Of a stretch of 64,000 nucleotides of DNA, positions 9,914 to 61,811 are shown piece by piece (position 1 is the stretch's first letter; each line of letters opens with the position of its first letter). Where the stretch lies: contig NZ_JAUFPN010000059.1 in the NCBI RefSeq assembly GCF_030409335.1, positions 1-64,000 of the forward strand, given 5' to 3'. The position numbers were made by a program, and so were the translations under genes. The notes under the pieces were generated by a model, which made no database searches, was not told the DNA's origin, and saw only the letters and a program-made list of their open reading frames with translations. Origin of the DNA: Paeniroseomonas aquatica. GTDB taxonomy: Bacteria > Pseudomonadota > Alphaproteobacteria > Acetobacterales > Acetobacteraceae.

Positions 9914-9956
9914 AAGGCCGGGGAGAAGGTAATCTCCCCGGACCCTTCATCTATGT
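9914..9956 (+). repeat. Stem-loop repeat family, copy A
   Basis: Stem CCGGGGAGA (9918-9926) pairs with TCTCCCCGG (9933-9941) around AGGTAA, followed by the family tail ACCCTTCATCTATGTCTAT. It lies directly after the YmdB-like gene and its tail meets the stop codon of the convergent small gene at 9957. Probable 3'-end or terminator function. Confidence 0.7.
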
Positions 9957-10154
9957 CTATTCGTCGCGCAGGGGGTGCTTGCGGGTCGGGGTGATGTCGA
10001 CGGGGCCACCGCGGGCGGCGGCGGCTTCGCCCATCTCGCCGGGCTGGACCTCACCGGGCGAGACCGGGTTGTCGATCGTGCCCGCGGCGCGGTCGTCCTC
10101 GTTGTCCGGCGCGGTCGGATCGGTGCCCGGCTTGCCGGATGTCTTGTCGCTCAT
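9957..10154 (-). CDS. Hypothetical small hydrophilic protein, 65 residues
   Basis: ATG 10154 is preceded by GAGAGGG. The product is acidic, hydrophilic and rich in Pro, Gly, Asp and Thr (KPGTDPTAPDNEDDRAAG, VSPGEVQPGEMGEAAA, ending TRKHPLRDE), with no hydrophobic core, so it is probably intrinsically disordered. There are no cysteines and no signal. It stands alone between two repeat-family hairpins, convergent with the YmdB-like gene. Small disordered proteins of this composition are often general-stress or unknown proteins; I cannot assign a function. Confidence 0.7.
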   Translation of the reverse strand: MSDKTSGKPGTDPTAPDNEDDRAAGTIDNPVSPGEVQPGEMGEAAAARGGPVDITPTRKHPLRDE

Positions 10155-10219
10155 GGCGGCGCCCTCTCTGCTGATGCCCCCGCCAACGCGCCCCGAAAAT
10201 CCTGGTTGCCCCCACGTCC

Positions 10220-10286
10220 AACGCAGAAAAACCGATGAGGGGTTGGACGCATGCGTCCAACGGGAGAATGCCTTCTCCCCGACCTT
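10220..10286 (-). repeat. Stem-loop repeat family, copy E, with embedded palindrome
   Basis: Read on the - strand, AAGG is followed by a stem GGGAGAA-GGCA-TTCTCCC (10262-10279). Before the family tail CCCCTCATCGG comes a perfect 18-bp palindrome TTGGACGCATGCGTCCAA (10243-10260) that other copies lack. The element lies 3 bp after the prpE stop. Confidence 0.65.
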
Positions 10287-10288
10287 CC

Positions 10289-12187
10289 CTACTTCACCAG
10301 CGCCGCCAGGGTCCCCTGCATCTCCTCCAGGATCGTCGGATCGTCGATCGTCGGCGGCACCACATACGCCTCGCCATCCGCGATCTTCCGAAGCGTGGCC
10401 CGCAGGATCTTGCCGCTGCGGGTCTTCGGCAGGCGGGAGACGATCCGCGCATCCCGGAAGGCCGCCACCGGCCCGATGCGGTCGCGCACCAGGGCGACCA
10501 GCTCGCGCGCCAGATCCGCCTCGGTCTTGGTGATTCCCGCCTTCACCACCACCAGGCCCAGTGGCACCTGGCCCTTCAGGCTGTCCTTCACGCCCACGAC
10601 CGCGCATTCCGCCACGTCCGGGTGCGCCGCCAGCACCTCCTCCATCGCCCCGGTGCTCAGCCGGTGGCCGGCGACGTTGATGATGTCGTCGGTGCGGGAC
10701 ATGACGGAGACATAGCCCTCGGCGTCCACCACCCCGGCGTCGGAGGTGTTGTACCAGCCGGGGAAGGCCTCGAGGTAGGCCTCGCGGCAGCGGTCGTCGG
10801 CATGCCACAGGGTCGCCAGGCAACCCGGCGGCAAGGGCAGGCGGATCGCCAGGGTCCCGGTCTGCCCGGCCGGCAGCGGCTGCCCCGCCTCGTCCAGCGC
10901 CGCGACCTCGTAGCCGGGTGAGGGCTTGCCGCCGCTGCCGAATCGGGCCGGGAACAGCCCCATGCCGCGAAAATTGCCGGTGATGGCCCAGCCCGTCTCG
11001 GTCTGCCACCAATGGTCGATCACCGGCTTGCCCAGCATCGCCGCCGCCCATTCCGCGGTCGGCGGATCGCAGCGCTCGCCGGCCAGAAACAGCGCCTCGA
11101 GCCGCGAGAGGTCGTAGGTGGCGAAGAGCCTGCCCTCGGCATCCTCCCGCTTGATGGCGCGGATGGCGGTGGGGGCGGTGAAGAAGGCCTTCACCTTGTG
11201 CTCGGCGCAGACCCGCCAGAAGGCGCCGGCATCCGGCGTGCCCACCGGCTTGCCCTCGTAGACGACGGTGGTCGCGCCGACCAGCAGCGGCGCATAGACG
11301 ATGTAGGAATGCCCGACCACCCAGCCGACGTCGGAGGCGGTGAACATCACATCCCCCGGCCCGACGCCGTAGAGCATGGCCATGGAGTTGTGCAGCGCGA
11401 CCGCATGCCCGCCGTTGTCGCGGACGATGCCCTTCGGCTTGCCGGTGGTGCCGCTGGTATAGAGGATATACAGCGGGTCGGTCGCCGCGACGGGCACGCA
11501 GGCGTGCGCCGCCGCCGCCGCCTCCGCCGCCAGCAGGTCCTGGTCCCGCCCGGGGGTCAGGTCGCAGGCCAGCTCGGGCCGCTGCAGGATCAGGCAGCCC
11601 AACGGCTTGTGCGGCGACAGCGCGATCGCCGCGTCCAGCAGCGGCTTGTAGGCGATGACCCGGACCTCGCTCCCCTTGGGCTCGAGCCCGCAGGAGGCGC
11701 TGATGACGACCTTGGGCCGGGCATCGGCGATCCGCGCCGCCAGCTCGGCCGCGGCGAAGCCGCCGAAGACCACCGAATGCACCGCGCCCAGCCGGGCGCA
11801 GGCGAGCATGGCGACGGGGGCTTCCAGCACCATCGGCAGGTAGATCACCACCCGGTCGCCCTGGCCGACGCCGAGCGCCGCCAGCGCCCCGGCCAGCTTC
11901 GAGACCCGCTCCAGCAGCCGGGCATAGGTGAGGGTCTCGACCCGGCCGGTGACCGGGCTGTCGTGGATGATGGCCGGCTGGCCGCCGCGTCCCGCCGCCA
12001 CATGCCGGTCGACCGCGTTGTGGCAGGTATTGAGCCGGGCATCGGGGAACCAGCGGCCATAGACGCCGGCGGCGGGGTCGAAGATCCGCTCCGGCGCCCG
12101 GTCCCAGTCGATCCCCCGTGCCGCGGCGCGCCAGTAGTCCTCCGGCGCCGCCCGCCAGGCCGCATAGGTGGCGTCATAGCCCGTCAT
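10289..12187 (-). CDS. prpE: Propionyl-CoA synthetase / acyl-CoA synthetase PrpE
   Basis: This 632-residue ANL-superfamily enzyme activates propionate (or a close short acid) to its CoA thioester through an acyl-adenylate. The ATP motif is LYILYTSGTTGKPKGIVRD, with later HWWQTETGWAI and WYNTSDAGVVDAEGY. The C-terminal catalytic lysine motif is KTRSGKILRATLRKIADGE in shorter runs. The N-terminal ACAS domain starts near residue 4 (YAAWRAAPEDYWRAAA). I chose ATG 12187. The length and the R-NGGHAVALHNSM segment favour PrpE over acetyl-CoA synthetase. No prpBCD genes are nearby. The gene ends beside a repeat-family hairpin; upstream lies the terminator of the MFS gene, so it probably has its own promoter. 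Confidence 0.88.
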   Translation of the reverse strand: MTGYDATYAAWRAAPEDYWRAAARGIDWDRAPERIFDPAAGVYGRWFPDARLNTCHNAVDRHVAAGRGGQPAIIHDSPVTGRVETLTYARLLERVSKLAGALAALGVGQGDRVVIYLPMVLEAPVAMLACARLGAVHSVVFGGFAAAELAARIADARPKVVISASCGLEPKGSEVRVIAYKPLLDAAIALSPHKPLGCLILQRPELACDLTPGRDQDLLAAEAAAAAHACVPVAATDPLYILYTSGTTGKPKGIVRDNGGHAVALHNSMAMLYGVGPGDVMFTASDVGWVVGHSYIVYAPLLVGATTVVYEGKPVGTPDAGAFWRVCAEHKVKAFFTAPTAIRAIKREDAEGRLFATYDLSRLEALFLAGERCDPPTAEWAAAMLGKPVIDHWWQTETGWAITGNFRGMGLFPARFGSGGKPSPGYEVAALDEAGQPLPAGQTGTLAIRLPLPPGCLATLWHADDRCREAYLEAFPGWYNTSDAGVVDAEGYVSVMSRTDDIINVAGHRLSTGAMEEVLAAHPDVAECAVVGVKDSLKGQVPLGLVVVKAGITKTEADLARELVALVRDRIGPVAAFRDARIVSRLPKTRSGKILRATLRKIADGEAYVVPPTIDDPTILEEMQGTLAALVK

Positions 12188-12234
12188 GGTGTCGCTCCCC
12201 GTCTGGTTTTGGCGGCAAGGTGCGCCGGACATGG

Positions 12235-12264
12235 AAAAGGCGCCAGGGTCTCCCCCGGCGCCTT
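12235..12264 (-). terminator. Intrinsic terminator of the MFS transporter gene
   Basis: On the - strand AAGGCGCC (12264-12257) pairs with GGCGCCTT (12244-12237) around a 12-base loop and is followed by TTCC. It lies 17 bp after the MFS stop codon and before prpE. Confidence 0.7.
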
Positions 12265-12281
12265 GCCTGCGTCGCCGGGGT

Positions 12282-14003
12282 TCAGCGCCGGCTGGAGCCG
12301 GCGCCATCCTCGGAGAAGATATCGACGTTCTTGGTTTCCGGCACGAAGAGCGCGCCGACCACCACGGTGATCAGGGCGATGACGATGGGATACCAGAGCC
12401 CGTAGTAGACATCGCCGGTCTGGGCGATCATGGCGAAGGCCGTCGCCGGCAGCAGCCCGCCGAACCAGCCGTTGCCGATGTGGTAGGGCAGCGACATGGA
12501 GGTGTAGCGGATGCGGGTCGGGAAGAGCTCGACCAGCGCCGCGGCGATCGGGCCGTAGACCATGGTCACGTAGATCACCAGGATCGTCAGGATGCCGATC
12601 AGCACCGCCGGCTGTTCGCGGAAGATGTCGAAGGGGCTCGACATCTTCACGACCGAGGGGTTGGAGGCCGCCGGGTAGCCCGCCGCGGTCAGCGCCGCGC
12701 CGAGGTCACGCGCGAAGGTCGGCGAATCCGCCGGGATCGGCGCCGCGCCCTGGATGCGCACCGCGGCGATGCTCCCCGCCGGGGCTTCCTCGACCGTGTA
12801 GTTGACGGAAGCGCGCGCCAGCGCCGCCTTGGCCACGTCGCAGGGCTGGTTGAACTTCGCCGTGCCGGTCGGGTTGAACTGGAAGGAGCAGCTCGACTTG
12901 TCCGCGACCACCTGGACCGAGATCTCGGAATGCGCCTTGTGCAGGGCCGGATTGGCCTCCGCGCTCATGAGCTTGAACAGCGGGAAGTAGGTCAGCGCCG
13001 CCAGCAGGCAGCCGCCGAGGATGATCGGCTTGCGGCCGATCTTGTCGGACAGCCAGCCGAACAGCACGAAGCCGCCCGAGCCCAGCAGCAGCGACCAGGC
13101 GATCAGCATGTTGGTGGTGAAGCCGTCCACCTTCAGCACGCTGCCCATGAAGAACAGCGCGTAGAACTGCCCGGTGTACCAGACCACCGCCTGGCCCATG
13201 GTCAGCCCGACCAGCGCCAGCAGGGCGACCTTGGCGTTCTTCCACTGGCCGAAGGCCTCGCCGATCGGCGCCTTGGAGCCGGTGCCCTCCGCCTTCATCT
13301 TCACGAAGGCCGGGCTCTCCTCCATCTGGAGGCGGATCCAGACCGAGATGCCGAGCAGCAGGACCGAGACGAGGAAGGGGATGCGCCAGCCCCAGGCCTT
13401 GAAGTTCGCGTCGCCGACCGCGAGCTGGGTGAACAGGATCACCAGCAGCGACAGGAACAGCCCCGCCGTCGCGGTGATCTGGATGAAGCTGGTGTAGAAG
13501 CCGCGCCGGCCCTGCGGCGCATGCTCGGCCACGTAGGTCGCCGCGCCGCCGTATTCGCCGCCCAGCGCCAGGCCCTGGAGCATCCGCAGGATGATGAGGA
13601 TGACCGCGGCCGAGATGCCGATGTCGGCCGAGGTGGGCAGGATGCCGACCACGAAGGTCGAGGTGCCCATGATGAGGATGGTGACGAGGAAGGTGTACTT
13701 CCGCCCGACCAGGTCGCCGAGCCGGCCGAAGACCAGGGCGCCGAAGGGCCGCACCAGGAAGCCGGCGGCGAAGGCGAGCAGCGCGAAGATGTTGCGCGTC
13801 GCCTCGTTGAACATCGGCTGGCCGTCGGCGCCGAGCGGGTTGAAGAAATTCGCCCCGATGACCACCGCCAGCGAGCCGAACAGGTAGAAGTCGTACCATT
13901 CGAAGACGGTGCCGAGCGAGGAGGCGATGATGACCTTCCGCTCTTCCTTGGTCATGGACCGGGTCTTTGCCGCCTCAAGCGACGATGCCGTATATGCGCT
14001 CAT
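12282..14003 (-). CDS. MFS transporter, metabolite:H+ symporter (MHS) type, with a large soluble insertion
   Basis: The protein (573 residues) begins like MHS-family symporters: FEWYDFYLFGSLAVVIG in TM1, then GRLGDLVGRKYTFL between TM2 and TM3 and RMLQGLALGGEYGG in TM4. About twelve hydrophobic segments are visible. Between the GWLSDKIGRKPIILGG loop region and the last four helices there is an extra hydrophilic stretch (about residues 355-465) with two cysteines (SSCSF and QPCDV). MHS proteins are normally about 430-450 residues, so this adds roughly 110. Substrates of the family are organic acids, proline/betaine or shikimate; this one is unknown. The start has a good AAGGGCAGGAA site. Confidence 0.9.
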   Translation of the reverse strand: MSAYTASSLEAAKTRSMTKEERKVIIASSLGTVFEWYDFYLFGSLAVVIGANFFNPLGADGQPMFNEATRNIFALLAFAAGFLVRPFGALVFGRLGDLVGRKYTFLVTILIMGTSTFVVGILPTSADIGISAAVILIILRMLQGLALGGEYGGAATYVAEHAPQGRRGFYTSFIQITATAGLFLSLLVILFTQLAVGDANFKAWGWRIPFLVSVLLLGISVWIRLQMEESPAFVKMKAEGTGSKAPIGEAFGQWKNAKVALLALVGLTMGQAVVWYTGQFYALFFMGSVLKVDGFTTNMLIAWSLLLGSGGFVLFGWLSDKIGRKPIILGGCLLAALTYFPLFKLMSAEANPALHKAHSEISVQVVADKSSCSFQFNPTGTAKFNQPCDVAKAALARASVNYTVEEAPAGSIAAVRIQGAAPIPADSPTFARDLGAALTAAGYPAASNPSVVKMSSPFDIFREQPAVLIGILTILVIYVTMVYGPIAAALVELFPTRIRYTSMSLPYHIGNGWFGGLLPATAFAMIAQTGDVYYGLWYPIVIALITVVVGALFVPETKNVDIFSEDGAGSSRR

Positions 14004-28000: not shown

Positions 28001-28049
28001 AAGGTTTGGGGGGAGGTATCCCCCCAAGCCCCCTTCTATTTTTATTAGT
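28001..28049 (+). repeat. Stem-loop repeat family, copy B
   Basis: TTGGGGGGA (28006-28014) pairs with TCCCCCCAA (28019-28027) around GGTA, followed by the tail CTTCTATTTTTATTAGT. It lies just after the RTX stop, and its tail contains the stop codon of the convergent peptide-transporter ATPase (28045-28047). Confidence 0.75.
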
Positions 28050-28986
28050 CCGCCGCGAGCAGGCATTCGACGGCGCCGCGTTGCGGGACGTCCGTCGCGC
28101 AGCGAGGTTCCGCCACGGGGCAACGCGGGTGGAAGCGGCAGCCGGGGGGGATATTCGCCGGGTCCGGCAGGATATCCCCCAGGCCCACGTCGGGCACGCC
28201 AAGCCCGGGCTCCGGCGTCAACACGCTCGCCAGCAGGGCCCGCGTATAGGGATGCCGCGGCGCCCGGAACAGGGCATCCGCCTCGCCCCGCTCGACGATG
28301 CGCCCGAGGTACATCACCGCCACCTCCGTCGCCACATGCTCCACCACCGCCAGGTTGTGGCTGATGAACAGCAACGTCAGATCCAGTTCCCGCCGCAACT
28401 GCGCCAGCAGGTTCAGGATCTGCGCCTGCACCGAGACATCCAGCGCCGACGTCGGCTCGTCGCAGATGACGATGCGCGGCCGCAGCACCAGCGCCCGCGC
28501 GATCGCCACCCGCTGCCGCTGCCCGCCCGAGAGCTGCGCCGGATACCGCCCCGCCTGCTCGGCGGACAGGCCCACCCGCCCCAGCATCTCGAGGACCCGC
28601 GCCTCCACCTCGCGCCGCCCGATGCCCCCCTGCGCCTCCAGCGGCATCGCCACGATGTCGCGGATGCGCCGCCGCGGATTGAGCGAGGCGAAGGGGTCCT
28701 GGAACACCGGCTGGATCAGCCGCGCCCGCGCCCGCCGGTCCATCGTGTCCAGCCGCTGCCCCTCGACCAGCACCTCACCGGCGGTTGGCGGCAGCAGCCC
28801 CAAAATCACCCGCGCCAGGGTCGACTTGCCGCAGCCGGATTCCCCGACGACCCCCAGCACGCCGCCCTTCGGCACGCTGAAGGAGACATCGTCGACCGCG
28901 ACGACCTCCCGGTCCCGCCCCAGCAGCCCGCCGCCCACGCGGAAGACCCGCCGCAGCCCCCGCACCTCGATCGCCGGCCCGCTCAT
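28045..28986 (-). CDS. Peptide ABC transporter ATP-binding protein (OppF/DppF type)
   Basis: This 313-residue ATPase has Walker A GESGCGKST, signature LSGGQRQRVAIARAL, Walker B IVICDEPTSALDVSVQ and the C-terminal oligopeptide-ABC domain with CRFHPRCPVAEPRC. The last motif is typical of OppD/OppF partners. ATG 28986 overlaps the previous stop (ATGA). It is the final gene of an operon ggt-dppB-dppC-oppD-oppF, and its stop codon lies within a repeat-family element. Confidence 0.92.
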   Translation of the reverse strand: MSGPAIEVRGLRRVFRVGGGLLGRDREVVAVDDVSFSVPKGGVLGVVGESGCGKSTLARVILGLLPPTAGEVLVEGQRLDTMDRRARARLIQPVFQDPFASLNPRRRIRDIVAMPLEAQGGIGRREVEARVLEMLGRVGLSAEQAGRYPAQLSGGQRQRVAIARALVLRPRIVICDEPTSALDVSVQAQILNLLAQLRRELDLTLLFISHNLAVVEHVATEVAVMYLGRIVERGEADALFRAPRHPYTRALLASVLTPEPGLGVPDVGLGDILPDPANIPPGCRFHPRCPVAEPRCATDVPQRGAVECLLAAD

Positions 28987-44326: not shown

Positions 44327-44347
44327 GGGGGGCTCCTTCTGGGAGAA

Positions 44348-44400
44348 GAAAGCACGGGAGGAAGTATCCTCCCGCACCCTCCTCTATTTTTATTAGTTAA
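44348..44400 (+). repeat. Stem-loop repeat family, copy C1
   Basis: CGGGAGGA (44355-44362) pairs with TCCTCCCG (44367-44374) around AGTA, with the tail CCTCTATTTTTATTAGTTAA. It is oriented + within the 5' leader of the - strand pimC-like gene and is tail-to-tail with copy C2; they share GTTAAC at 44396-44401. Confidence 0.75.
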
Positions 44401-44449
44401 CTTATAGAAATAGATGAGGGGCTTGGGGAGAATACCTTCTCCCCAACCT
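44396..44449 (-). repeat. Stem-loop repeat family, copy C2
   Basis: On the - strand TTGGGGAGAA-GGTA-TTCTCCCCAA (44446-44423) is followed by GCCCCTCATCTATTTCTATA. It begins at the stop codon of the 3-hydroxyacyl-CoA dehydrogenase gene and forms an inverted pair with C1. Confidence 0.78.
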
Positions 44450-46516: not shown

Positions 46517-46602
46517 TGGACGGTCCTCGTTTGCTTCATGGTGCGATCGGCGGCGCATCCTGTTGCCGGCCCCGACCGCTGTCAACACGACTAGATAGCT
46601 TG

Positions 46603-47704: not shown

Positions 47705-47874
47705 CGAATCCCCTGGGTTAGGCAAGGCACCGATGCTCCGGCAATCCGCCCGGCGTGTCGAGGCCATGGCCTTGCTTCCGCCACCCCATCGCCATGCCGC
47801 CACCGCATCGCCGTTGCCTGATGCGACCTTCCCCGCCCCCGCGCGTTACGGCGGCGGATCGGAGACAACTCGGC

Positions 47875-48288: not shown

Positions 48289-48348
48289 CCACCCTTGGCG
48301 GATGCGGCCCGGCGCCGCATCATCCCCGGCAAAACCGGGGGAACGCCA

Positions 48349-49323: not shown

Positions 49324-49330
49324 GCCGGCC

Positions 49331-51573: not shown

Positions 51574-51593
51574 GGATGGTATCCCCTGGACCC

Positions 51594-51633
51594 GGCCGCG
51601 GATCCCGCGGCCCCGGCCGCGGGATCCGCGGCC
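51594..51633. repeat. Perfect 19-bp inverted repeat in the leader of the enolase-superfamily gene
   Basis: GGCCGCGGATCCCGCGGCC (51594-51612) and its exact reverse complement (51615-51633) are separated by CC. It starts 20 bp upstream of the ATG at 51573. It could end the UPF0280 transcript, block the leader, or be an operator. No T-tract follows. Confidence 0.7.
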
Positions 51634-51643
51634 CGGCGCGACC

Positions 51644-51683
51644 CTAGAGCAAACTCCGATCTGATGGACGCATCAGACCGGAG
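51644..51683. repeat. Hairpin repeat starting CTAGAGC (extragenic palindrome)
   Basis: CTCCG-A-TCTGATG and CATCAGA-C-CGGAG (51654-51683) form a 12-bp stem with one A-C mismatch and loop GACG, preceded by CTAGAGCAAA. It looks like an interspersed palindrome of alphaproteobacteria. It lies beside a second CTAGAGC element. Confidence 0.6.
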
Positions 51684-51707
51684 ATATTCGCTCGCCAGAA
51701 CAACAAG

Positions 51708-51751
51708 CTAGAGCGGGCTCCGTGAGCCAGTGCGAACGGAAACCGCTCTAG
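51708..51751. repeat. 44-bp element bounded by CTAGAGCGG / CCGCTCTAG
   Basis: The ends are exact 9-bp inverted repeats, and the interior can form a second stem (GGCTC-CGT-GAGCC). It ends 5 bp from the UPF0280 stop (51757). Together with 51644-51683 it makes an intergenic palindrome pair; similar CTAGAGC elements are widespread in related genomes as I recall. Confidence 0.65.
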
Positions 51752-51756
51752 CCGCC

Positions 51757-52602: not shown

Positions 52603-54074
52603 GGGTTCCCCGCGATCCAGCCCTCGCGCCGGGCGCCGCCGCCATGCTCGGCCAGCAGCGCCTCCAGCGGCACCGCATGATCCACATGCCCGCCCAGCCG
52701 GGCATAGAGCTCCGCGCCCAGGGTGAACTCGATCGGCGCCACCAGCGCCGGCGTCGGCACATGGCCGAAGGCGCCATCCGGTATCCGCAGCACATCCGCC
52801 ATGATGGTGATCCCACCCCCCGGCCAGAGCATGCACGGCGCGCCGCCGATCGTCACCCGCACCAGCGAGGCCTGCACCTCGCGGGTCAGCAACACGGGAT
52901 TCTCGGTCACACCCGCCCGCAACGATCCGCCCGCGCCGGCCATGAAGAGGATGGAGGTGAGCGCCGGCTCGCAATTCTCGCCGATCCGCTCGACCGTCCG
53001 GGCCACGGCTTCCGGCGCCGGAACCGGCACCGGCCGCAACGATTCATCCAGCACGCAGTAGAGCGAGTCCTCGCCCGTGGTGCTGGTCAGCAGCAGCCGC
53101 AGCCCCGGCCAGGCGATCTTCGGATCGATCCGCTCGATCACCGCCAGCGGGTCGGTGATATCGGTGCCGCCCCAGCCCTTGCCGGGCTGCGCCACCTGGA
53201 AGTACCGCCCCGGGGTCGAGCGCCGGCCGCGCACGCGGATGCCGCTCGGCGGCACGTCGAGGCACCTGCCCGCCTGGTGCTCGCTGAGCACCCCGGTGAT
53301 GTGGTCGTCGACCACGATCACCTCGTCCACATGGCCGTGCCACTGCCGGGCGAAGATGCCGATGGCGGCCGAGCCGCAGCCGACCCGCATCCGCCGCTCC
53401 GGCGTGCCGTCGACGATGGGCGCCGTGCCCGCCTGCAGCACCAGCCTCGGCCCGCCGTCGATCGAGACCTCCACCGCCTGCTTGTTGCAGAGCGCCAGCA
53501 TGGCCGCGCAGGTGACGTTGCCCTCCCGCTTCGAGCCGCCCGTCAGGTGCCGCACCCCGCCGAGGCTCAGCATCTGGCTGCCGTATTCGGCCGTGGTGAC
53601 ATGGCCGATCTGCTCGCCATCGACCCGCACCGCGGCGGTCTCGGCGCCGAGGTGCCGGTCGGTGTCGATCTTTACCTTCAGGCCGCAGTAGCTGAAGATC
53701 CCCTCGGTCACGACGGTGACGGTATCGACGCCGGCATGGCGCGAGCCGACGATGAAGGGCGCCGGCTTGTAGTCCGGGTAGGTCGTGCCAGCGCCGATGG
53801 CGGTGACGAAGGTCGCCTTGTCCCTTTGGGGCGCCAAGCCCCCGGCCCAATCCTCGGAGCCTTCGAGGAAGGGAACCGTCTCCCCGCCCGCATCGACGGT
53901 CCGCTCCATCAGCACCAGCGGATCGGTCCGGACCAGCGCGCCATCCCGGTTGGCATAGCGGCTGCACGCGCCCGCGCGCCCCGGGCGGATGCGGCACAGC
54001 ACCGGGCAGGCATCGCAGCGCACGATGCCCTCGTTGCCCTCGCGGGCGCCGAAGATCGCGGTCCGGTCGCTCAT
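52587..54074 (-). CDS. hnr: 6-hydroxynicotinate reductase-like Fe-S protein
   Basis: A 495-residue protein whose N-terminus holds a four-cysteine cluster motif, C20, C23, C27 and C37 (CDACPVLCRIRPGRAGAC). The body contains TEGIFSYCGLKVKIDTDRHL, VGCGSAAIGIFARQWHGHVD and GKGWGGTDITDPLAVIERID. It resembles the protein family annotated as 6-hydroxynicotinate reductase, which in E. barkeri reduces 6-hydroxynicotinate to 1,4,5,6-tetrahydro-6-oxonicotinate with ferredoxin. Neighbouring molybdenum hydroxylase and enamidase-like genes support this. ATG 54074 overlaps the previous stop (ATGA). Confidence 0.78.
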   Translation of the reverse strand: MSDRTAIFGAREGNEGIVRCDACPVLCRIRPGRAGACSRYANRDGALVRTDPLVLMERTVDAGGETVPFLEGSEDWAGGLAPQRDKATFVTAIGAGTTYPDYKPAPFIVGSRHAGVDTVTVVTEGIFSYCGLKVKIDTDRHLGAETAAVRVDGEQIGHVTTAEYGSQMLSLGGVRHLTGGSKREGNVTCAAMLALCNKQAVEVSIDGGPRLVLQAGTAPIVDGTPERRMRVGCGSAAIGIFARQWHGHVDEVIVVDDHITGVLSEHQAGRCLDVPPSGIRVRGRRSTPGRYFQVAQPGKGWGGTDITDPLAVIERIDPKIAWPGLRLLLTSTTGEDSLYCVLDESLRPVPVPAPEAVARTVERIGENCEPALTSILFMAGAGGSLRAGVTENPVLLTREVQASLVRVTIGGAPCMLWPGGGITIMADVLRIPDGAFGHVPTPALVAPIEFTLGAELYARLGGHVDHAVPLEALLAEHGGGARREGWIAGNPWPLP

Positions 54075-56755
54075 GTGCGGAGTGCCTCCAGCACGCGGTG
54101 GGGCAGGGCAGGGACGCGGGTGATCTCCGCCCCGGTCGCATCCCGGATGGCGGAGAAGATCGCCGGCGCCGTCGGCACCAGCGCCGGCTCGCCGATCCCC
54201 TTGGCGCCATAGGGGCCGAGCGGCTCCGGATCCTCGATGAGGATATTCTCGATCACCGGCACGTCGCCGATGGTCGGGATGAGGTAGTCGTGCAGGTTCT
54301 CGGTCCGGCCGGGGAGGTATTCCTCCAGCAGCGCCAGCCCGATGCCCTGGGCGATGCCGCCCTCGATCTGCCCCTCGACCAGCATCGGGTTGATCGCCCG
54401 TCCCACGTCATGCGCCGCGACGATGCGGTCCAGCCGCACCGTCCCCAGCTCGGTATCCACCGCCAGCGCCGCGAGCTGCGCGGCGAAGCCATAGGTCGCA
54501 TAGGGCGAACCCTGGCCATCCGCGTCCATCGGCACCGTCGGCGGATCGAAGCGCCCGATCCCCTCCAGCGGCGCCTCGAGCGCAATCGCCCGCCCATCCA
54601 CCAGCAACCGCCCAGCTTCCAAGGCGAGCCGCGCCTCCGGCCCGGCATTGGCGCGCAGCAGGATCGCATCCCGGAGCGCCAGCCCGGCCTCCAGCGCCGC
54701 CCGGCCGCTGACGAAGGTCTGGCGGGAGGCGCTGGTCTTGCCGGCATCCGCGGTCAGGTCGGTATCCCCGAGCACCAGGGCGAAATCCGCCACCGGCAGC
54801 CCCACCGCATCGGCCACGACCTGCAGCAGCACCGAGGTGCTGCCCTGGCCGATATCCACCGCACCGTTGTGGAAGACCAGCCGCCCTTCCGGGGCCAAGG
54901 TCACCCGCATGGTCGAGGGATTGGACATGCCGGTATTGCCGATGCCGTACCACATGCAGGCAACGCCCACGCCATGCCGCAGCAGCCCGCCGCGCGCATT
55001 GGCCCGCGCGGCTTCCGCCCGCAATTCCCGCCAGCGCGGCCGCAGCGCCTCCAGGCACTCCACCAGCCCGACCGAATGGGCGATGACCTGGCCCGTCGCC
55101 GTCGCATCGCCCCGGCGGAGCGCGTTGAGCACCCGGAATTCCAGCCGGTCCAGCCCCGCCGCATCGGCCAGCTTGTCCCACAGCGCCTCCTGCGCGATGG
55201 CCGCCTGCGGCACGCCGAAGCCGCGGAAGGCACCGGAGGGCGGGTTGTTGGTCAGCACCGCCCGCGCCCGGCTCCGCGCATGGGGCATGCGGTAGGGCCC
55301 GGTCGAATGCGCCGGCACCCGCCCGGCGACGGTCGGCCCCCAGCTGGCATAGGCGCCGGTGTCGTAGACGCCCTCGAACTCGAAGCCGACCAGCCGCCCC
55401 GCGGCATCGCAGCCGGCGCGCGCGGTGATGCGTGCGGGATGCCGCTTGGTGCTGCTCGCCATGCTCTCGCCGCGGGTCCAGACCGCCCGCACCGGCCGCC
55501 GCAGCACCCAGGCGGCCACCGCGATCATCGGCTGCACCGCCACGTCGAGCTTGCCGCCGAAGCCGCCGCCGCAGGCGGTCGGCACGATCCGCACCGCGGA
55601 CTGCGGAATGCCCAGCACCCCCGCCACCTCTTCCAGATCCATGTACGGTGCCTGGGTGGAGGCATGGACCTCGATCCGGTCGCCGACGCGCCGGGCCCAG
55701 CCCGCCTCGGGCTCGATATAGGCATGCTCGACGAAGCCGGTCTGCCACGCGCCCTCGGCGACATGCGCCGCCCCGGCCAGCGCCGCATCGACATCGCCGC
55801 AGGCCAGCCGCCCGGTGGTCAGCACATTGTCCGGCCAGCGGTCGTGCAGCGCCGGGGCGCCCGGGGCCAGCGCCGCCCCGGGATCCGCCAGGGCCGGCAG
55901 CACCTCCCAGACGATCGGCAGCTCCGCCACCGCGATGGCCTCCACCGCCGCCCGCTCCCCGACCAGGGCGCAGACCGTGTCGCCGCGGTAGCGCACCAGC
56001 CCCGCGGCAAACACCGCTTGGTCCTTGATATCCGGGTAGATGCCGAAACCGTTCCGCCCCGGCACGTCCGCTGCGGTGAGGACCCTCACCAGCCCGGGAT
56101 GCCGCGCGTAGAGCGGCGCGCAATCGCCCAGGGTGAAGCGCGCATGCGCATGCGGGCTCCGCACCGGCCGCAGCCAGAGCGCATCCGCCGGCGCCGCATC
56201 CGCGCCATAGACCTCCGCGCCATCCACCTTGGGCTGGCCATCGGCGCGCGGCATCCGCGCCCCCACCGCCGCGCCCGCCGCCGGCAGCACCACCGCGGGC
56301 GCGTCCAGGAAGGAATGCGCTGCGCAGACCGCATCGATGATCTTGCGATAGCCGGTGCAGCGGCAGAGCACGCCACCCAGCGCCACCTCGACCGCCGCCA
56401 CCGCCGGCCGCGGCTCCACGGCCAGCAACTCCATCGCCGCCAGCAGCATCCCCGGCGTGCAGAAGCCGCATTGCGCCGCGCCATGCGCGAGGAAGGCCCG
56501 CTGCAGCGCCGCGCCCAGCGACAGCGCCGCCAGCCCCTCCACCGTCAGCACCGCGCCGCCCTCGGCCTGGGCCAGCGGCACCAGGCAGGCACAGACCTGC
56601 TTGCCATCCAGCAGCACCGTGCAGGCGCCGCAATCCCCGGCGTCGCAGCCGGACTTGGTCCCGACCAGCCCGAGCGCATCGCGCAGCACCAGGCTCAGCC
56701 GCGTCTCCGGCGCCGCGGCGACATCCCGCGCCGTGCCATTCACCAGCATCCTCAT
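54071..56755 (-). CDS. Molybdenum hydroxylase: fused 2Fe-2S and molybdopterin subunit (nicotinate dehydrogenase type)
   Basis: An 894-residue xanthine-oxidase-family protein. The N-terminal 150 residues carry two 2Fe-2S clusters: C37, C42, C45, C57 (SGCDAGDCGAC and CAC) and C96, C99, C131, C133. From about residue 170 the molybdopterin domain follows, with ACGGGFGGKLDV, SGAFRGFGVPQA, DIGQGSTSVLLQ and the active-site glutamate in GAKGIGEPAL. The FAD domain is not in this chain; it is the next gene upstream, with ATGA overlaps on both sides. Fusion without FAD recalls Desulfovibrio Mop. The likely reaction is hydroxylation of nicotinate at C6, inferred from context. Confidence 0.88.
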   Translation of the reverse strand: MRMLVNGTARDVAAAPETRLSLVLRDALGLVGTKSGCDAGDCGACTVLLDGKQVCACLVPLAQAEGGAVLTVEGLAALSLGAALQRAFLAHGAAQCGFCTPGMLLAAMELLAVEPRPAVAAVEVALGGVLCRCTGYRKIIDAVCAAHSFLDAPAVVLPAAGAAVGARMPRADGQPKVDGAEVYGADAAPADALWLRPVRSPHAHARFTLGDCAPLYARHPGLVRVLTAADVPGRNGFGIYPDIKDQAVFAAGLVRYRGDTVCALVGERAAVEAIAVAELPIVWEVLPALADPGAALAPGAPALHDRWPDNVLTTGRLACGDVDAALAGAAHVAEGAWQTGFVEHAYIEPEAGWARRVGDRIEVHASTQAPYMDLEEVAGVLGIPQSAVRIVPTACGGGFGGKLDVAVQPMIAVAAWVLRRPVRAVWTRGESMASSTKRHPARITARAGCDAAGRLVGFEFEGVYDTGAYASWGPTVAGRVPAHSTGPYRMPHARSRARAVLTNNPPSGAFRGFGVPQAAIAQEALWDKLADAAGLDRLEFRVLNALRRGDATATGQVIAHSVGLVECLEALRPRWRELRAEAARANARGGLLRHGVGVACMWYGIGNTGMSNPSTMRVTLAPEGRLVFHNGAVDIGQGSTSVLLQVVADAVGLPVADFALVLGDTDLTADAGKTSASRQTFVSGRAALEAGLALRDAILLRANAGPEARLALEAGRLLVDGRAIALEAPLEGIGRFDPPTVPMDADGQGSPYATYGFAAQLAALAVDTELGTVRLDRIVAAHDVGRAINPMLVEGQIEGGIAQGIGLALLEEYLPGRTENLHDYLIPTIGDVPVIENILIEDPEPLGPYGAKGIGEPALVPTAPAIFSAIRDATGAEITRVPALPHRVLEALRT

Positions 56756-57624
56756 GCCGCCACCCGCAGCGGCGCCGCCAGCCGCGCCAGCAGCCGCCGC
56801 AGCAGCACCACCGCCGCCTCCTGCCGATAATCCGCGGTTGCCCGCACGTCGCCGATCGGCGCCAGCCCGGCCAGATGCGCCGGCTGCACCACCTGCGCCG
56901 CCTCGGCCGGCGCCACGCCCTCCAGCGCCGCCTCCAGCGCCGGCAGCCGCTGCGCCACCTCCGAACAGGCGCCGACGGCCAGCCGCGCCCGGGCGATCCG
57001 CCCGCCCGGCGCCTCGAGCACCGCCGCCACCATGACGATGGAGATCACGAGGTAGGCCCGCGCCCCCAGCTTCTCGAAGCCCGCGACCGCCTCCGCGCTC
57101 GCCTTCGGCACCAGCAGCGCGACCGCCAGCTCATCCGCCGCCAGCGCCGTCCGCCGGTTGCCCAGGATGAACGCGCCCAGCGACAGCCGCCGCACCCCGC
57201 GCACGCCGGCCAGCTCCACCGTCGCATCCAGCGCCAGCAGCGGCGGCACCCCGTCCGCGGCGGGGGAGGCGTTGCAGAGATTGCCCAGCAGGGTGCCGCG
57301 GTTCTGCACCTGCGCCCCGCCGACCTTGCCCGCCGCCGCACGCAGCCCGTCGAACCAAGCGGGCAGGGCGGCATCCCGCAACCCCGCCCAGGTCACCCCG
57401 GCGCCGATCCGGTGGTGGTCGCCGCGATCCTCGATGCTGGCGAGTCCGGCGATGGCCGAGAGGTCGAGCACCGCCCGCGCATCCGGCGCCCGCCCCCAGG
57501 CCGCCGCCCCCGCCCGCGCCGGATAGACATCCGTGCCCCCCGCCAGCAGCAGCGGCGGCGCGGGGGCCGCCGCCAGCAGCGCCAGGGCCTCCGCCAGCGT
57601 TCCGGGTCGGTGATAGGCGGTCAT
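56752..57624 (-). CDS. FAD-binding subunit of the molybdenum hydroxylase
   Basis: A 290-residue CoxM/XdhB-type subunit. The FAD pyrophosphate motifs LLLAGGTDVYP and GGAQVQNRGTLLGNLCNASP are complete, and the C-terminal CO-dehydrogenase flavoprotein domain follows (VQPAHLAGLAPIGDVRATADYR). It passes electrons from the Fe-S clusters to an acceptor. It is the first gene of the four-gene - strand operon, starting at ATG 57624, 66 bp after the MarR stop. Confidence 0.92.
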   Translation of the reverse strand: MTAYHRPGTLAEALALLAAAPAPPLLLAGGTDVYPARAGAAAWGRAPDARAVLDLSAIAGLASIEDRGDHHRIGAGVTWAGLRDAALPAWFDGLRAAAGKVGGAQVQNRGTLLGNLCNASPAADGVPPLLALDATVELAGVRGVRRLSLGAFILGNRRTALAADELAVALLVPKASAEAVAGFEKLGARAYLVISIVMVAAVLEAPGGRIARARLAVGACSEVAQRLPALEAALEGVAPAEAAQVVQPAHLAGLAPIGDVRATADYRQEAAVVLLRRLLARLAAPLRVAA

Positions 57625-57648
57625 GCTGGCGCCCCGATCATGTGCACA

Positions 57649-57661
57649 CTAACAAGTCTAG
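57649..57661 (-). promoter_or_regulatory. Candidate regulator site upstream of the molybdenum hydroxylase operon
   Basis: On the - strand CTAGACTTGTTAG (57661-57649) lies 25 bp before the ATG at 57624. Its first half CTAGACTT resembles CTAGGCTT at 58147 and CTAGACTC at 58170 in the other control region of the cluster. This is a hypothesis from three short matches. Confidence 0.25.
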
Positions 57662-57690
57662 CGAGCGTCATGCCGGGGTCACAACCGAAT

Positions 57691-58119
57691 TCACCCGAGC
57701 TTTCCGAGGATCGTCCCGAGTCGCGCCTGGTCCTCGCGCGACAGCGGCGCGAGCGTCGCCGCCGTCACCGCCCGGGCCTTGCCGACCCAGGCCGGCAGCG
57801 CCGCCAGCGCCGCCGGGGTGAGCGCCACCCGCAGCCGCCGGGCATCCGCCGCGTCCCGGTCGCGCACCACCAGCCCGCGCGCCATCAGCCGCGTCACCAC
57901 GCCCTTGACCGTCGGCGGGTCCATCGCCAGCGCCCGGCCGAGCAGGTTCTGCGACAGCGGCCCGCGCCGCCAGAGCACGTGCAGCGCGGCGAATTGCATG
58001 GAGGTCGGCCCGTCCTCGCCCATGATGCCCTGGAACAGCGCCAGGTGCCGCTGGTAGGCGCGGCGCAGCAGGTGGCCGACCTGCTCCTCCAGCACGTAGT
58101 CTTCCGGCTCCTGGTCCAT
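57691..58119 (-). CDS. MarR family transcriptional regulator
   Basis: A 142-residue winged-helix repressor: FAALHVLWRRGPLSQNLLGRAL is the helix-turn-helix approach, and MDPPTVKGVVTRLMARGLVVRDRDAADARRLRVALT, in shorter runs, is the recognition helix and wing. MarR proteins bind aromatic or phenolic ligands and release DNA. It stands between the molybdenum hydroxylase operon and the divergent amidohydrolase, 83 bp from the latter start, so it most likely controls the whole nicotinate-type cluster, as analogous regulators do. Confidence 0.92.
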   Translation of the reverse strand: MDQEPEDYVLEEQVGHLLRRAYQRHLALFQGIMGEDGPTSMQFAALHVLWRRGPLSQNLLGRALAMDPPTVKGVVTRLMARGLVVRDRDAADARRLRVALTPAALAALPAWVGKARAVTAATLAPLSREDQARLGTILGKLG

Positions 58120-58146
58120 CGGCGCCTCCGCACCCCGCTTTCGTTT

Positions 58147-58177
58147 CTAGGCTTACGACCGACCGGCCGCTAGACTC
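58147..58177. promoter_or_regulatory. Candidate regulator sites between marR and the enamidase-like gene
   Basis: CTAGGCTT (58147-58154) and CTAGACTC (58170-58177) lie in the 83-bp divergent region. A similar CTAGACTT appears before the molybdenum hydroxylase operon. They are candidates for the MarR operator only. Confidence 0.25.
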
Positions 58178-58202
58178 CGGCGCGGACAGAGGGGACCGAG
58201 CG

Positions 58203-59402
58203 ATGGCGATGGAGGCGATTTCCGGCCCGGCGAAGGGCCGCATCCTGGTGCGCAACATCGGCCTGCTGCTCTCGGGCGACCTGGCGGCACCGATCCTGGA
58301 GGCCGACGCCATCCTGATCGAGGATGGCCGCATCCTGGCCATCGGCCGCGGGGCCGAGCTGGCCGCCCGCGGCCCGGTCGATTCCACCATCGACGCGCAT
58401 GGTGGCGCGGTCTCTCCCGGACTGGTCGACAGCCACGTCCATCCGGTGCTGGGCGACTGGACGCCGCGGCAGAACCAGATGGGCTGGGTCGAAAGCTGCC
58501 TCAATGGCGGCATCACCACCATGATCTCGGCCGGCGAGGTTCATTCCCCCGGCCGGCCGCGCGACATCATCGGGCTGAAGGCGCATGCGATCTTCGCCCA
58601 GCGCAGCTTCCACAACCTTCGCCCGGCCGGGGTGAAGGTGCTGGCCGGCGCCCCGGTGCTCGAGAAGGGCATGGTCGAGAGCGACTTCGCCGAACTCGCC
58701 GCCGCCGGCGTGACCCTGCTCGGCGAGGTCGGCCTCGGCACCGTCAAGGCCGGCTACGAGGCGCGGGAGATGGTCGCCTGGGCCCGCAAATACGGCATCC
58801 AGTCCACCATCCACACCGGCGGCCCCTCGGTCCCCGGCAGCGGCTACATCGACCGCGACACGGTGCTCGAGGCCGATGCCGACATCATCGGCCACATCAA
58901 CGGCGGCCATACCTCGCTCTCCGAGGCGCATGTCTGCGAGCTCTGCGAACGCTCGACCCGCGCCATCGAGATCGTCCACAACGGCAACGAACGCGTCGCC
59001 ATCGCCGCGGTGCAGGCGGCGCGCGACCTCGACGTGCTGCACCGGGTCATCCTCGGCACCGACAGCCCGGCCGGCTCCGGCGTCCAGCCGCTCGGCATCC
59101 TCCGCATGATCTCGCTGCTCTCCTCGATCGGCGGCATCCCGGCGGCCCAGGCCATCGCGCTGGCGACGGGCAATACCGCCCGCATCCGCAATCTCGACAG
59201 TGGCCTGATCGAGCCGGGCCGCGCCGCCGACCTGGTCTTCCTCGACCGTGCCCAGCACTCCGCCGGCCGGGGCCTGCTGCACAGCATCGAACTGGGCGAC
59301 ATCCCCGGCATCGGCGGGGTGATGATCGACGGCACGATGCGCTGCGGCCGCAGCCGCAACACCCCGCCCGCCGAGCGGGTGCCGGAAGTCCTCGGGCATT
59401 GA
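58203..59402 (+). CDS. ena: Enamidase-like amidohydrolase
   Basis: A 399-residue metal-dependent amidohydrolase. Metal ligands: H78 and H80 (DSHVHP), likely K145 or E154 in PAGVKVLAGAPVLEKG, H204 (IHTGG), H231 (GHINGG) and D287 (GTDSPAGSG). The phrases RPAGVKV, GEVGLGT, HTGG-S-PGS and SRNTPPAERV closely match what I recall of E. barkeri enamidase, which hydrolyses 1,4,5,6-tetrahydro-6-oxonicotinate to 2-formylglutarate and ammonia. GAGGGG lies 8 bases upstream of ATG 58203. It is divergent from marR and followed by a membrane protein with a TTGA overlap. Confidence 0.8.
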   Translation: MAMEAISGPAKGRILVRNIGLLLSGDLAAPILEADAILIEDGRILAIGRGAELAARGPVDSTIDAHGGAVSPGLVDSHVHPVLGDWTPRQNQMGWVESCLNGGITTMISAGEVHSPGRPRDIIGLKAHAIFAQRSFHNLRPAGVKVLAGAPVLEKGMVESDFAELAAAGVTLLGEVGLGTVKAGYEAREMVAWARKYGIQSTIHTGGPSVPGSGYIDRDTVLEADADIIGHINGGHTSLSEAHVCELCERSTRAIEIVHNGNERVAIAAVQAARDLDVLHRVILGTDSPAGSGVQPLGILRMISLLSSIGGIPAAQAIALATGNTARIRNLDSGLIEPGRAADLVFLDRAQHSAGRGLLHSIELGDIPGIGGVMIDGTMRCGRSRNTPPAERVPEVLGH

Positions 59403-60379
59403 GTTTGCCCGGCTGGAACAGCGGCATCCGCAACGGGGTGCTGCTGGGCGCGCTGGCGCTGGCCGCCGTCGTCGCGCTGAATTACAGCGAGCTGCCCGGG
59501 CTCGGCGCCATCCTGGCCGACCTGCCGGCCGCCGTCGCCATCTCCGCCGCGGTCCATATCCCGCAGATCCTGCTGACCGCGGCCGCCTGGCGCGCCCTGC
59601 TGCCGCCCGACCGGCGTCCCGCCTTCGGCACCATGGCCATGCTCCGCTGGTTCCGCGAATCGGCCAATGCGCTGCTGCCGGCCGGCGCCCTAGTCGGCCA
59701 GGCCGCCGCCGCCCGGCTGCTCACCCGGCGCGGCGTCCCGGGGCGGCTGGCCGGCGCCACCGCGACGGTGGACCTGACGCTCGAGGCGGTCTCCCAGTTG
59801 TTCTTCACCCTGGCCGGCGTCGCGCTGCTGCTGGGCGTGGGGGATGGCCCGGGCCTGCTCGGCTTCGCCGCCGCCGGCTTCGGCATCGCGCTGGCCGGCG
59901 CCGCGGCCATGCTGGCCTTCCAGCGCAACCTGCCGCTGGCCCTGCTGGAGCGCGGCATGGTGCGGCTCTCGCGCCGCTGGCCGGCGATCGACCCGGCCTG
60001 GATCCACGGGCTGCAGCAATCCATCCTCGACCTCCACGCCGACTGGCCGCGGCTCGCCCTGGCGACGCTGTGGCATACCGGCTCCTGGCTGCTCGGCGCG
60101 GTCGAGATCGCCGGCGTGCTGGCCCTGCTCGGCCACCCCGTCTCGCTGGCCGATGCGCTGGTGATCGAGAGCCTCGCCCAGGCGCTGCGGAACGTCGGCT
60201 TCATGCTGCCGGGGGCGCTGGCCGTGCAGGAGGGCGCCATCATCGGCGCCGCCGCCCTGGTCGGGGTCCCGCCCGGCGCGGCGCTGGCCGTCGCCCTGGT
60301 CCGCCGCACCCGCGAGGTCTGCCTCAGCCTGCCCGGCCTTATCGCTTGGCAGCGGGCCGAAACCAGGGCTATGCGCTAG
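59399..60379 (+). CDS. Flippase-like integral membrane protein (UPF0104/HpnL-like)
   Basis: A 326-residue protein with about eight hydrophobic segments and the LPTM-type phrases ILLTAAAWRALLPPDRRP, WFRESANALLPAGALVGQAA and ALRNVGFMLPGALAVQEGAI. These recall lysylphosphatidylglycerol synthetase/flippase (UPF0104) and HpnL families involved in moving lipids or lipid-linked groups. Its TTG 59399 overlaps the enamidase-like stop (TTGA). No other hopanoid gene is near. A radical SAM gene follows after 115 bp. Confidence 0.85.
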   Translation: MSLPGWNSGIRNGVLLGALALAAVVALNYSELPGLGAILADLPAAVAISAAVHIPQILLTAAAWRALLPPDRRPAFGTMAMLRWFRESANALLPAGALVGQAAAARLLTRRGVPGRLAGATATVDLTLEAVSQLFFTLAGVALLLGVGDGPGLLGFAAAGFGIALAGAAAMLAFQRNLPLALLERGMVRLSRRWPAIDPAWIHGLQQSILDLHADWPRLALATLWHTGSWLLGAVEIAGVLALLGHPVSLADALVIESLAQALRNVGFMLPGALAVQEGAIIGAAALVGVPPGAALAVALVRRTREVCLSLPGLIAWQRAETRAMR

Positions 60380-60494
60380 GGAAACCGCCGGGCCTCCCCA
60401 CATGGGTCCCGAACCACCGCACTGGCCCCGTGGACTGCCGCGCCGCCCCGGATCGACCGGGTGGCGCTGCCGCCGGGCCGCAAGGGGATAGTTG

Positions 60495-61685
60495 ATGGCC
60501 AGCAAGGCAACCGACGCAATGACCGCCGACCTGGCGCCTCTCGTCATGGATACGGCGACCGCCCCGGCCAAGGCGCGCGACCCCAGGACCGCCGGCGTGA
60601 TGGACCTGCTGCGGCTGATCCCCCAGGGCGGCCCGGCGATCTGCAATTTCTCCGTCACCAACATGTGCAACGCCACCTGCGACTTCTGCAATTTCGCCCA
60701 CAACAAGGGTTTCGTGAAGCACCGCAGCTGGCTCGGCGCCGACCTCTTCCCCAAGGCCCTCGCCCATATGCGGGAGAAGGGCAACGTCCGCTTCGCCACC
60801 TTCATGGGCGGCGAGCCGCTGCTGCACCCCCGCATCATCGAGATGGTGCGCGAGGCCACCGCCCAGGGCGTGCAGCCCACCATGGTCACCAACGGCTGGC
60901 TGCTGCCGCCCAAGGTGGATGCCATCGCCGCCAGCGGCATCACCACCATCTTCATCTCGATCGACAGCGAGCACGCCCACCTCCACGAGGAAAACCGCGG
61001 CCTGAAGGGCGTCTGCGCCCGCATCAAGGACGCCAATACCCGCCTGTCCGCCAAGGGCGTCACCCCGATCGCCAGCGTCGCCATGACCCGGCTGGTCAAG
61101 GACTACGAAGCCCTCGGCCACTTCCTGAAGGAGCTCGGCTTCGCCGCCGTCACCTTCTCCTATCCGCGCAAGGCAGCCCTCGGCTCCTCCTCCCTGGTCT
61201 ATTCCGAGGACAGCGACCTCGTCGACATGTCCCGGGACGAGCTGCTGACCGCCTTCGCGGGCGTCGAGCGCGCCCGCGCCGTCATCCCCGTGCACAACCC
61301 GCGCGCCGCCATCGCCGACATGCGCCGCCGCCTGACCGGCGAGGGCGAGCGCTTCACCTGCCATGCCGGCTACAAGTATTTCTACCTCGACTGGAACTAC
61401 GACCTCTGGCGCTGCGAGGACTGGAAGGCGCCGATCTCCAAGGTCTGGGACTTCACGCCCGAGAAGGTCATGCGCGACCCCTGCCAGGCCTGCACCACCG
61501 ACTGCTACCGCGACGCCAGCATCATGCTGCACTTCAGCATCTCGATCGGCGACGCCTTCGCCCGCTTCAAGGAAGGCAAGATCGGCGCCGGGCTGGCGGC
61601 CTTGGCGGATGGGCGGAACCTCGGCTCGCTGGGCGCGGTGATCGGGCATGGGGCGCGGCTGGCGAAGCTGGCGGGGCGGAGCTGA
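60495..61685 (+). CDS. Radical SAM protein of unknown function
   Basis: A 396-residue enzyme with the radical SAM cluster C58, C62 and C65 (MCNATCDFC), the GGEPLLHPRIIEMV segment and SIDSEHAHLH. The C-terminus adds further cysteines (FTCHAGYKYF, WRCEDW, DPCQACTTDC), like auxiliary-cluster (SPASM-type) domains. ATG 60495 follows AAGGGG. I do not recognise a specific subfamily: the motif differs from HpnH. Position after a flippase-like protein suggests a role in lipid or envelope modification, which is inference. Copy D1 of the repeat family follows the stop. Confidence 0.85.
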   Translation: MASKATDAMTADLAPLVMDTATAPAKARDPRTAGVMDLLRLIPQGGPAICNFSVTNMCNATCDFCNFAHNKGFVKHRSWLGADLFPKALAHMREKGNVRFATFMGGEPLLHPRIIEMVREATAQGVQPTMVTNGWLLPPKVDAIAASGITTIFISIDSEHAHLHEENRGLKGVCARIKDANTRLSAKGVTPIASVAMTRLVKDYEALGHFLKELGFAAVTFSYPRKAALGSSSLVYSEDSDLVDMSRDELLTAFAGVERARAVIPVHNPRAAIADMRRRLTGEGERFTCHAGYKYFYLDWNYDLWRCEDWKAPISKVWDFTPEKVMRDPCQACTTDCYRDASIMLHFSISIGDAFARFKEGKIGAGLAALADGRNLGSLGAVIGHGARLAKLAGRS

Positions 61686-61693
61686 AGCAAGCC

Positions 61694-61746
61694 AAGGTTG
61701 GGGAGAAGGTATTCTCCCCAAGCCCCTCATCTGTTTCTATTAGTTA
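61694..61746 (+). repeat. Stem-loop repeat family, copy D1
   Basis: TTGGGGAGAA (61698-61707) pairs with TTCTCCCCAA (61712-61721) around GGTA, with the tail CCCCTCATCTGTTTCTATTA. It begins 8 bp after the radical SAM stop. It is tail-to-tail with copy D2 around GAATTC (61748-61753). Confidence 0.78.
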
Positions 61747-61811
61747 AGAATTCTTACTAATAAAAAGGAAAGGAGGGGTTCGGGGAGGAAGTACTTTTCC
61801 TCCCCGACCTT
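61747..61811 (-). repeat. Stem-loop repeat family, copy D2
   Basis: On the - strand TCGGGGAGGAA (61807-61797) pairs with TTCCTCCCCGA (61790-61780) around AAGTAC, followed by CCCCTCCTTTCCTTTTTATT. It lies in the 5' leader of the + strand gene at 61828, antisense to it, forming an inverted pair with D1. Confidence 0.76.

Follow-up and report, generated by a model that had tools for sequence, protein, structure and literature searches.

The BoxC, PIT and TMECO elements of enterobacteria are dispersed intergenic hairpins that carry a third-strand stretch. According to PMC4666352, their second loop is 3 nt long, inverted pairs join a type A with a type B copy, and copy number differs greatly between close relatives. 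Here we describe a repeat family that resembles them in each of these respects, a linker of usually 3 nt taking the place of the second loop. Seven stem-loop copies of it lie in a stretch of 64,000 nucleotides (the window) of Paeniroseomonas aquatica, positions 1 to 64,000 of contig NZ_JAUFPN010000059.1 (assembly GCF_030409335.1, forward strand). The unit consists of a purine-rich flank (AAGG or GAAAGG), a purine arm, a loop, a pyrimidine arm, a linker, a mirror image of the pyrimidine arm and a T-rich tail. Comparison of genome sequences establishes the family itself, a three-way covariation of both arms with the tail, a preferred linker length, the placement and pairing of the copies and their absence from many syntenic sites of relatives. 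The pattern marks a potential intrastrand triplex. Such repeats are known in kind; the sequence, strand order and placement found here are new as far as our searches show, and nothing among the open-licence papers listed by our literature searches deals with the family.

The strand order separates this family from the enterobacterial elements. It is R-Y-Y on one strand and R-R-Y on the other (R, purine; Y, pyrimidine), whereas theirs is Y-R-R. In addition, a T-rich tail follows the unit here, and the BoxC/PIT/TMECO consensus CCCTCNCCC N3-6 GGGNGAGGG N3 GGGNGAGGG (class II) has no exact match in the window or in 314 loci. Intrinsic (Rho-independent) terminators also join a GC hairpin to a T-rich stretch at gene 3′ ends, but the present family has a mirror core of several nucleotides between the stem and the T's and appears to spread to new sites. 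Repetitive extragenic palindromic (REP) sequences and the bacterial interspersed mosaic elements (BIMEs) built from them, which go with REP-associated tyrosine transposases (RAYTs), share with it the extragenic palindromes, the inverted pairs and the patchy occurrence, but not the mirror tail. Other stem-loop repeat families and the uptake-sequence terminators are also repeated hairpins, some of which lie at gene ends and are thought to be terminators, according to PMC2267715. Unlike in those, no uptake-word pattern was seen here, and the sequence varies while the three-way relation stays.

A mirror-image tail changes with both arms of the hairpin

The first-pass annotation of the window described stems whose two arms change together, followed by a T-rich tail. 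Both arms do change together, but the main signal is wider and takes in the tail as well: the T-rich stretch exists, but the tail begins with the mirror image of the 3′ arm, usually 3 nt past it. Examples of arm and tail are GGGGAGAA with CCCCTCAT, GGGGAGGAA with CCCCTCCTT, GGGGGAAG with CCCCCTTC, and GGAGGAA with CCTCCTT.

The relation was assessed in copies parsed from 45 of 61 hits in the P. aquatica genome, 40 of 67 hits in relatives, 3 from genome G018 and 69 from genome G035, 157 in total. The G035 copies came from a hairpin scan of loci picked by covariance model R1; the hits set aside were on the wrong strand or weak, apart from one of 18 nt and one place already counted (L109). Four copies could not be parsed, leaving 153, and six of these had no usable arm or C-run. 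Across the remaining 147, 91.8% of positions follow a mirror code in which a stem G stands opposite a tail C (670 of 714 positions) and a stem A opposite an A or T (355 of 402). Permuting the tails within each genome gave a match of 77.7% (maximum 81.3%), and none of 2000 permutations reached the real value. The linker is exactly 3 nt in 126 of the 153 copies. A held-out set of 56 readings, drawn from 10 genomes unused in forming the idea and including two wrong-strand readings and one misregistered copy, gave a mirror match of 95.6% versus 87.8% for permuted tails (0 of 5000) and a 3-nt linker in 50 cases.

Run lengths follow the same rule. The G-run of the stem equals the C-run of the tail in 160 of 203 copies, where permuted tails would give 82.6 and none of 5000 permutations did as well; the same equality holds in 49 of the 56 held-out readings. 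Where the runs are equal, a stem A flanked by G's faces a tail T in 62 of 68 cases. Holding the G-run length constant leaves covariation beyond the run in the Belnapia set (0 of 5000). The subfamilies GGGGAGAA, GGGGGAAG and GGGGAGGAAA were seen, and rare arms obey the code too, such as GGAGGGAGAA with the tail CCACCCTCAT in the held-out set. The three consecutive blocks, joined by short loops, are fit for G.G-C and A.A-T triads, or for C.G-C and T.A-T triads. In 20 dinucleotide shuffles of the window, no purine-armed hairpin was followed by a mirror tail that matches it. The real window gave 12 readings, nine of which represent six of the seven copies and three a different hairpin near 37319-37325. 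At the gathering threshold, the only Rfam match in the window is a 6S RNA gene at 8355-8509 (77.4 bits).

An antiparallel, direct-repeat relation between stem and tail was rejected, with a match of 0.59 versus 0.86 for the mirror, though it too lies above permutation. The frequent A in the tail was considered as favouring a purine motif (in DNA) over a pyrimidine motif (in RNA), and this was dropped. Most of these A's (67 of 90) immediately follow the G-containing core, so the two motifs are indistinguishable from the sequence.

Copies lie just past stop codons and face each other in pairs

A gene reads into the copy in the sense direction in 89 of the 153 cases; for 86 of the 89, the distance from the stop codon to the stem is 0-17 nt. 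TMECO, by contrast, shows no strand bias and no set distance, according to PMC4666352. The proposed excess near gene ends is borne out in the P. aquatica genome, where 31 of 32 sense-entered copies lie just past a stop and 12 more of the 44 examined are antisense. Stems this near to stop codons are expected where RNA polymerase outruns the ribosomes; a search of the open-licence literature on this point found no paper.

The tail-to-tail, BIME-like arrangement claimed for the window proved general. Of 55 neighbouring pairs within 400 bp, 53 are tail to tail and none is head to head; the two counted as tandem (L292, L304) are wrong-strand readings of tail-to-tail pairs, and the P. aquatica copies L003, L008 and L036 were added to this count by hand. 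Distances in the 19 pairs of G035 (L219-L264) cluster at 98-103 bp (7), 136-138 bp (3), 181-187 bp (2) and 211-217 bp (6), with one further pair at 155 bp that bears a 20-nt insert. A pair may therefore be one cassette with optional inner modules. The inner sequence of the G035 pairs is itself palindromic (TTGGTGCTGGCTG...), as though built of modules.

The family is patchy among relatives and absent from many of their syntenic sites

Covariance models were built from 14 copies (R1) and from 48 copies (R2), and all copy numbers given here are lower bounds. The first-pass annotation had suggested such a genome-wide search, and further copies are plentiful: R1 finds at least 42 places in the 6.5-Mb P. 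aquatica genome at E up to 0.1 (best 150 of 1585 candidates). It matches 12 of 60 genomes, with at least 39 places in P. aquatica itself, at least 23 in the sister genome G007, at least 81 in G035 and at least 1-5 in each of six other congeners, and it has no match in 24 genomes of other families of the class. R2 matches 39 of 249 genomes of the family, in 16 of 102 genera (best 22 candidates at most per genome). The genus g17 holds at least one genome without the element and four with at least 22. Among 150 genomes of the order 21 match, every one in the same family. For the protein encoded at 44450-46852, the first five named relatives among the matches listed are Belnapia; we take Belnapia and the relatives that bear the repeat family to be Acetobacteraceae.

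We compared 19 of 32 listed P. aquatica sites with three congeners (G005, G003 and G007). At syntenic sites with both flanks conserved, the element is absent in 10 of 11 cases in G005 and in 9 of 10 in G003; in both, L019 is the one exception, with a single antisense copy. At L004 an unrelated hairpin stands in place of the element in both genomes; the difference between the gaps at L005 and 9911 exceeds the element itself. In the sister G007 the element is present at five of eight sites, at one of them as half of a pair, and missing from three (L015, L005 and L026). Gain appears a simpler reading of these absences than loss. Five named Belnapia lack the element, and in them 24-25 bp separate the FadB-like gene from the acyl-CoA dehydrogenase gene, the two that flank the 44397 site in P. 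aquatica; the pair at 44397 therefore seems to have entered an operon. No target-site duplication, such as a MITE or another DNA transposon derivative would leave, was visible by eye at the three sites L015, L002 and L005. At L015, extra DNA (1501-1580) supplies new final codons for the upstream gene in place of the old ones, together with a stop TAA; it is absent in G005 and G007.

Nine of 19 G007 sites match one of 28 P. aquatica loci, and ten copy pairs at shared sites, those whose G007 copy parsed, could be compared. Both arms and the tail have changed together in five of the ten: L022/L126, 61691/L144, 61754/L144, L034/L137 and L003/L129. Three of these are one-step changes in run length (3 to 4 in L022/L126, 4 to 5 in 61691/L144, and 2 to 3 in the second run of 61754/L144), and L003 and L129 differ as whole types.

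A third strand as the probable constraint on the hairpin

The family is real and dispersed and is apparently spreading, and the three-way covariation is the main evidence about its nature. We think it probable that this is a spreading 3′-end repeat family of Belnapia and relatives in which the hairpin is constrained by a third strand. The mirror copy would then reflect the requirement for a strand lying along the hairpin, R-Y-Y with parallel pyrimidines on the sense strand (class III) and R-R-Y with antiparallel purines on the other DNA strand (class I). A third strand calls for just such a mirror relation, and pairing with the flank does not explain the mirror in the two larger sets, P. aquatica and G035. 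To our knowledge, ordinary templated copying does not produce mirror repeats.

In the proposed sequence of events, some machinery would move the units, which would be copied into gene ends, often as two facing tail to tail. The triplex would form in DNA or in RNA. A sense copy may act on the transcript end of the upstream gene through termination, 3′-end protection or both, and the facing copy would serve the same role for the other direction. We infer action on transcript ends because of the gene-end position together with the T-rich tail. A bolder form of this reading is tentative: a new kind of bacterial transcript end, in which the hairpin's own downstream pyrimidines would fold back as a third strand, either in RNA or as an R.R-Y triplex of the opposite DNA strand. 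Selection would then act on all three parts, the element would sit where the terminating ribosome can reach it, and it would travel between genes as a mobile cassette of tail-to-tail units.

In about 200 copies, of many variants and from several genera, the arms and the putative third strand stay matched and the position with respect to genes is the same, and this makes the formation and use of triplexes in living bacteria directly testable. Many copies look recently arrived and thereby provide a natural experiment on the importance of such triple helices in cells. The family would also show 3′-end signals spreading in the manner of mobile DNA, even into places where relatives have 24-25 bp between the two genes.

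Several points count against a third strand or against its use at transcript ends. A C-run requires protonation to serve as a third strand. The permutation significance is overstated because the copies share descent, and copies without a C-run tail are under-sampled because the search models include that tail. When the G-run length is fixed, covariation past the run is not measurable in the held-out set (2511 of 5000). Among the ten copy pairs at shared sites one is identical (L004/L127) and four have changed only in part, 44346/L145 in the tail alone, along with L027/L141, L036/L134 and L008/L143. The gene upstream of the copy is antisense to it in 61 of the 153 cases, and 3 more could not be assigned. 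A consensus terminator scan, which requires T's starting 0-2 nt past the stem, picks out none of the four copies that lie in 44100-62000. PMC4666352 reports no evidence for a stable triplex in vivo for the E. coli motif, no terminator activity of PIT elements and no role in gene expression.

The alternative that survives best, unlikely as we judge it, is that the copies are ordinary intrinsic terminators whose tail forms Watson-Crick pairs with the 5′ purine flank, the mirror being a by-product of composition. The stems do lie directly past stop codons, and minimum-energy RNA folding pairs the flank with part of the tail in six of six copies tried; in L219 and L222 the extended RNA hairpin ends just short of a U-rich stretch. 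Such pairing could bridge the gap between the stem and the T's. In G007 a copy's own tail pairs with the flank slightly better than permuted tails (206 of 5000 as good). Flank-tail pairing was nevertheless rejected as the cause of the tail sequence, since it shows no covariation in the two larger sets, where permuted tails are as good in 1522 of 5000 (G035) and 1335 of 5000 (P. aquatica) cases. The lengths of the stem G-run and tail C-run, however, correlate in G035, P. aquatica and G007 alike (r 0.61-0.72). Terminators do not usually spread as one family into new sites, as this family appears to do. The earlier suggestion of a terminator or other 3′-end element keeps its gene-end placement, but a plain intrinsic terminator is an incomplete fit because the scan for T's beside the stem passes over all four copies.

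It is less probable still that the three-way match is unselected and that conversion or new insertions exchange one whole subfamily for another, stem and tail already matching within each. Subfamilies do exist, and L003/L129 is a difference between whole types of the sort that replacement would leave. This account, however, leaves unexplained the code common to all subfamilies, the one-step run changes at shared sites and rare arms such as GGAGGGAGAA with their own matching tails.

A REP/BIME family mobilised by a REP-associated tyrosine transposase is very improbable, for all the short extragenic palindromes, inverted pairs and patchy copy number, in view of the absence of Y1_Tnp in 20 genomes and a consensus flank, AAGG, that differs from the GTAG of REP sequences. 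Of the REP-like mobile family proposed at first, the lineage-specific, dispersed 3′-end repeats in inverted pairs stand, but the tyrosine transposase as mover does not. The search for the Y1_Tnp domain (RAYT/IS200) was negative in all 20 genomes examined, which bear the element or are close relatives, other transposase families not having been searched. The 20 included every genome with at least 14 places in the 249-genome survey; further rich genomes of the order survey lie outside this set. The same search does detect the domain elsewhere: E. coli is one of 5 positives among 14 control genomes. A Y1 transposase gene is present in G003 (C24:83198-83560), the only one among seven other congeners searched, and G003 has five element places.

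Copies in the window

Inspection of the sequence confirms the seven copies at the places first given, five in sense behind a gene and two (44348 and 61747) antisense, ahead of the next gene. Six of them have perfect stems, 8-11 bp long, and the copy at 10220 has a 7-bp stem; the loops are as described, GGTA in three copies and AGTA, GGCA, AGGTAA and AAGTAC in the others. In the five sense copies the stem lies 3, 8, 9, 12 and 12 nt past the stop codon. Four copies have an exact mirror tail and two (9918 and 28006) a tail with a single mismatch; an insert interrupts the copy at 10220.

The first copy (9918..9966, plus strand) has its stem at 9918-9926 / 9933-9941 around the loop AGGTAA, 8 nt past the stop of a YmdB-like gene (9094-9909). 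Its tail starts at 9943 with CCCTTCATC, one mismatch from the mirror, and becomes T-rich. The second (10218..10289, minus strand) lies downstream of a minus-strand AMP-binding gene (10289-12307). A perfect 20-nt palindrome (10242-10261) separates its 7-bp stem (10273-10279 / 10262-10268, loop GGCA) from the tail CCCCTCATC. In the third (28006..28052, plus strand) the stem 28006-28014 / 28019-28027 with loop GGTA stands 12 nt past the stop of an RTX-like gene (26491-27993), and the tail CCCCCTTCTATTTTTATTAG, with one mismatch, contains the end of a convergent ABC-transporter gene (28045-28995, minus strand). Read backwards (CTAATA...), this tail offers stop codons, and the convergent gene ends there (28028-28055).

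The fourth copy (44355..44400, plus strand) is antisense in the leader of an acyl-CoA dehydrogenase gene; it has the stem 44355-44362 / 44367-44374, the loop AGTA and the mirror tail CCCTCCT (7/7). Tail to tail with it stands the fifth (44397..44446, minus strand), whose stem 44437-44446 / 44423-44432 (loop GGTA, mirror tail CCCCTCAT) begins 3 nt past the stop of a 3HCDH/ECH (FadB/FadJ-like) gene at 44450-46852. The sixth (61698..61747, plus strand) has the stem 61698-61707 / 61712-61721, the loop GGTA and the mirror tail CCCCTCAT, 12 nt past the stop of a radical SAM gene. It is arranged tail to tail around TTAAGAATTCTTA with the seventh (61754..61807, minus strand), antisense in the leader of an AA_synth gene (61828-62412), with stem 61797-61807 / 61780-61790, loop AAGTAC and mirror tail CCCCTCCTT (9/9).

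Inserts and neighbouring repeats

Some copies carry a perfect palindrome of about 20 nt, either within the linker or at the loop end; such palindromes lie at 10242-10261 in the window, at 1530-1549 in L003 and at 1504-1523 in L008. Further ones were seen in L127, L227, L026 and near 1430 in L008; in the plus-strand copy of L008 a palindrome lies within the upper stem and breaks it. The one at 10242-10261 occurs at three places in the P. aquatica genome, each within these elements. Another repeated element, a double hairpin with CCAAAGGCC...GGCCTTTGG followed by a GC-rich stem, lies at 37280-37337 in the window and at about 1570-1645 in L007, where it directly adjoins a copy of the triplex-patterned family.
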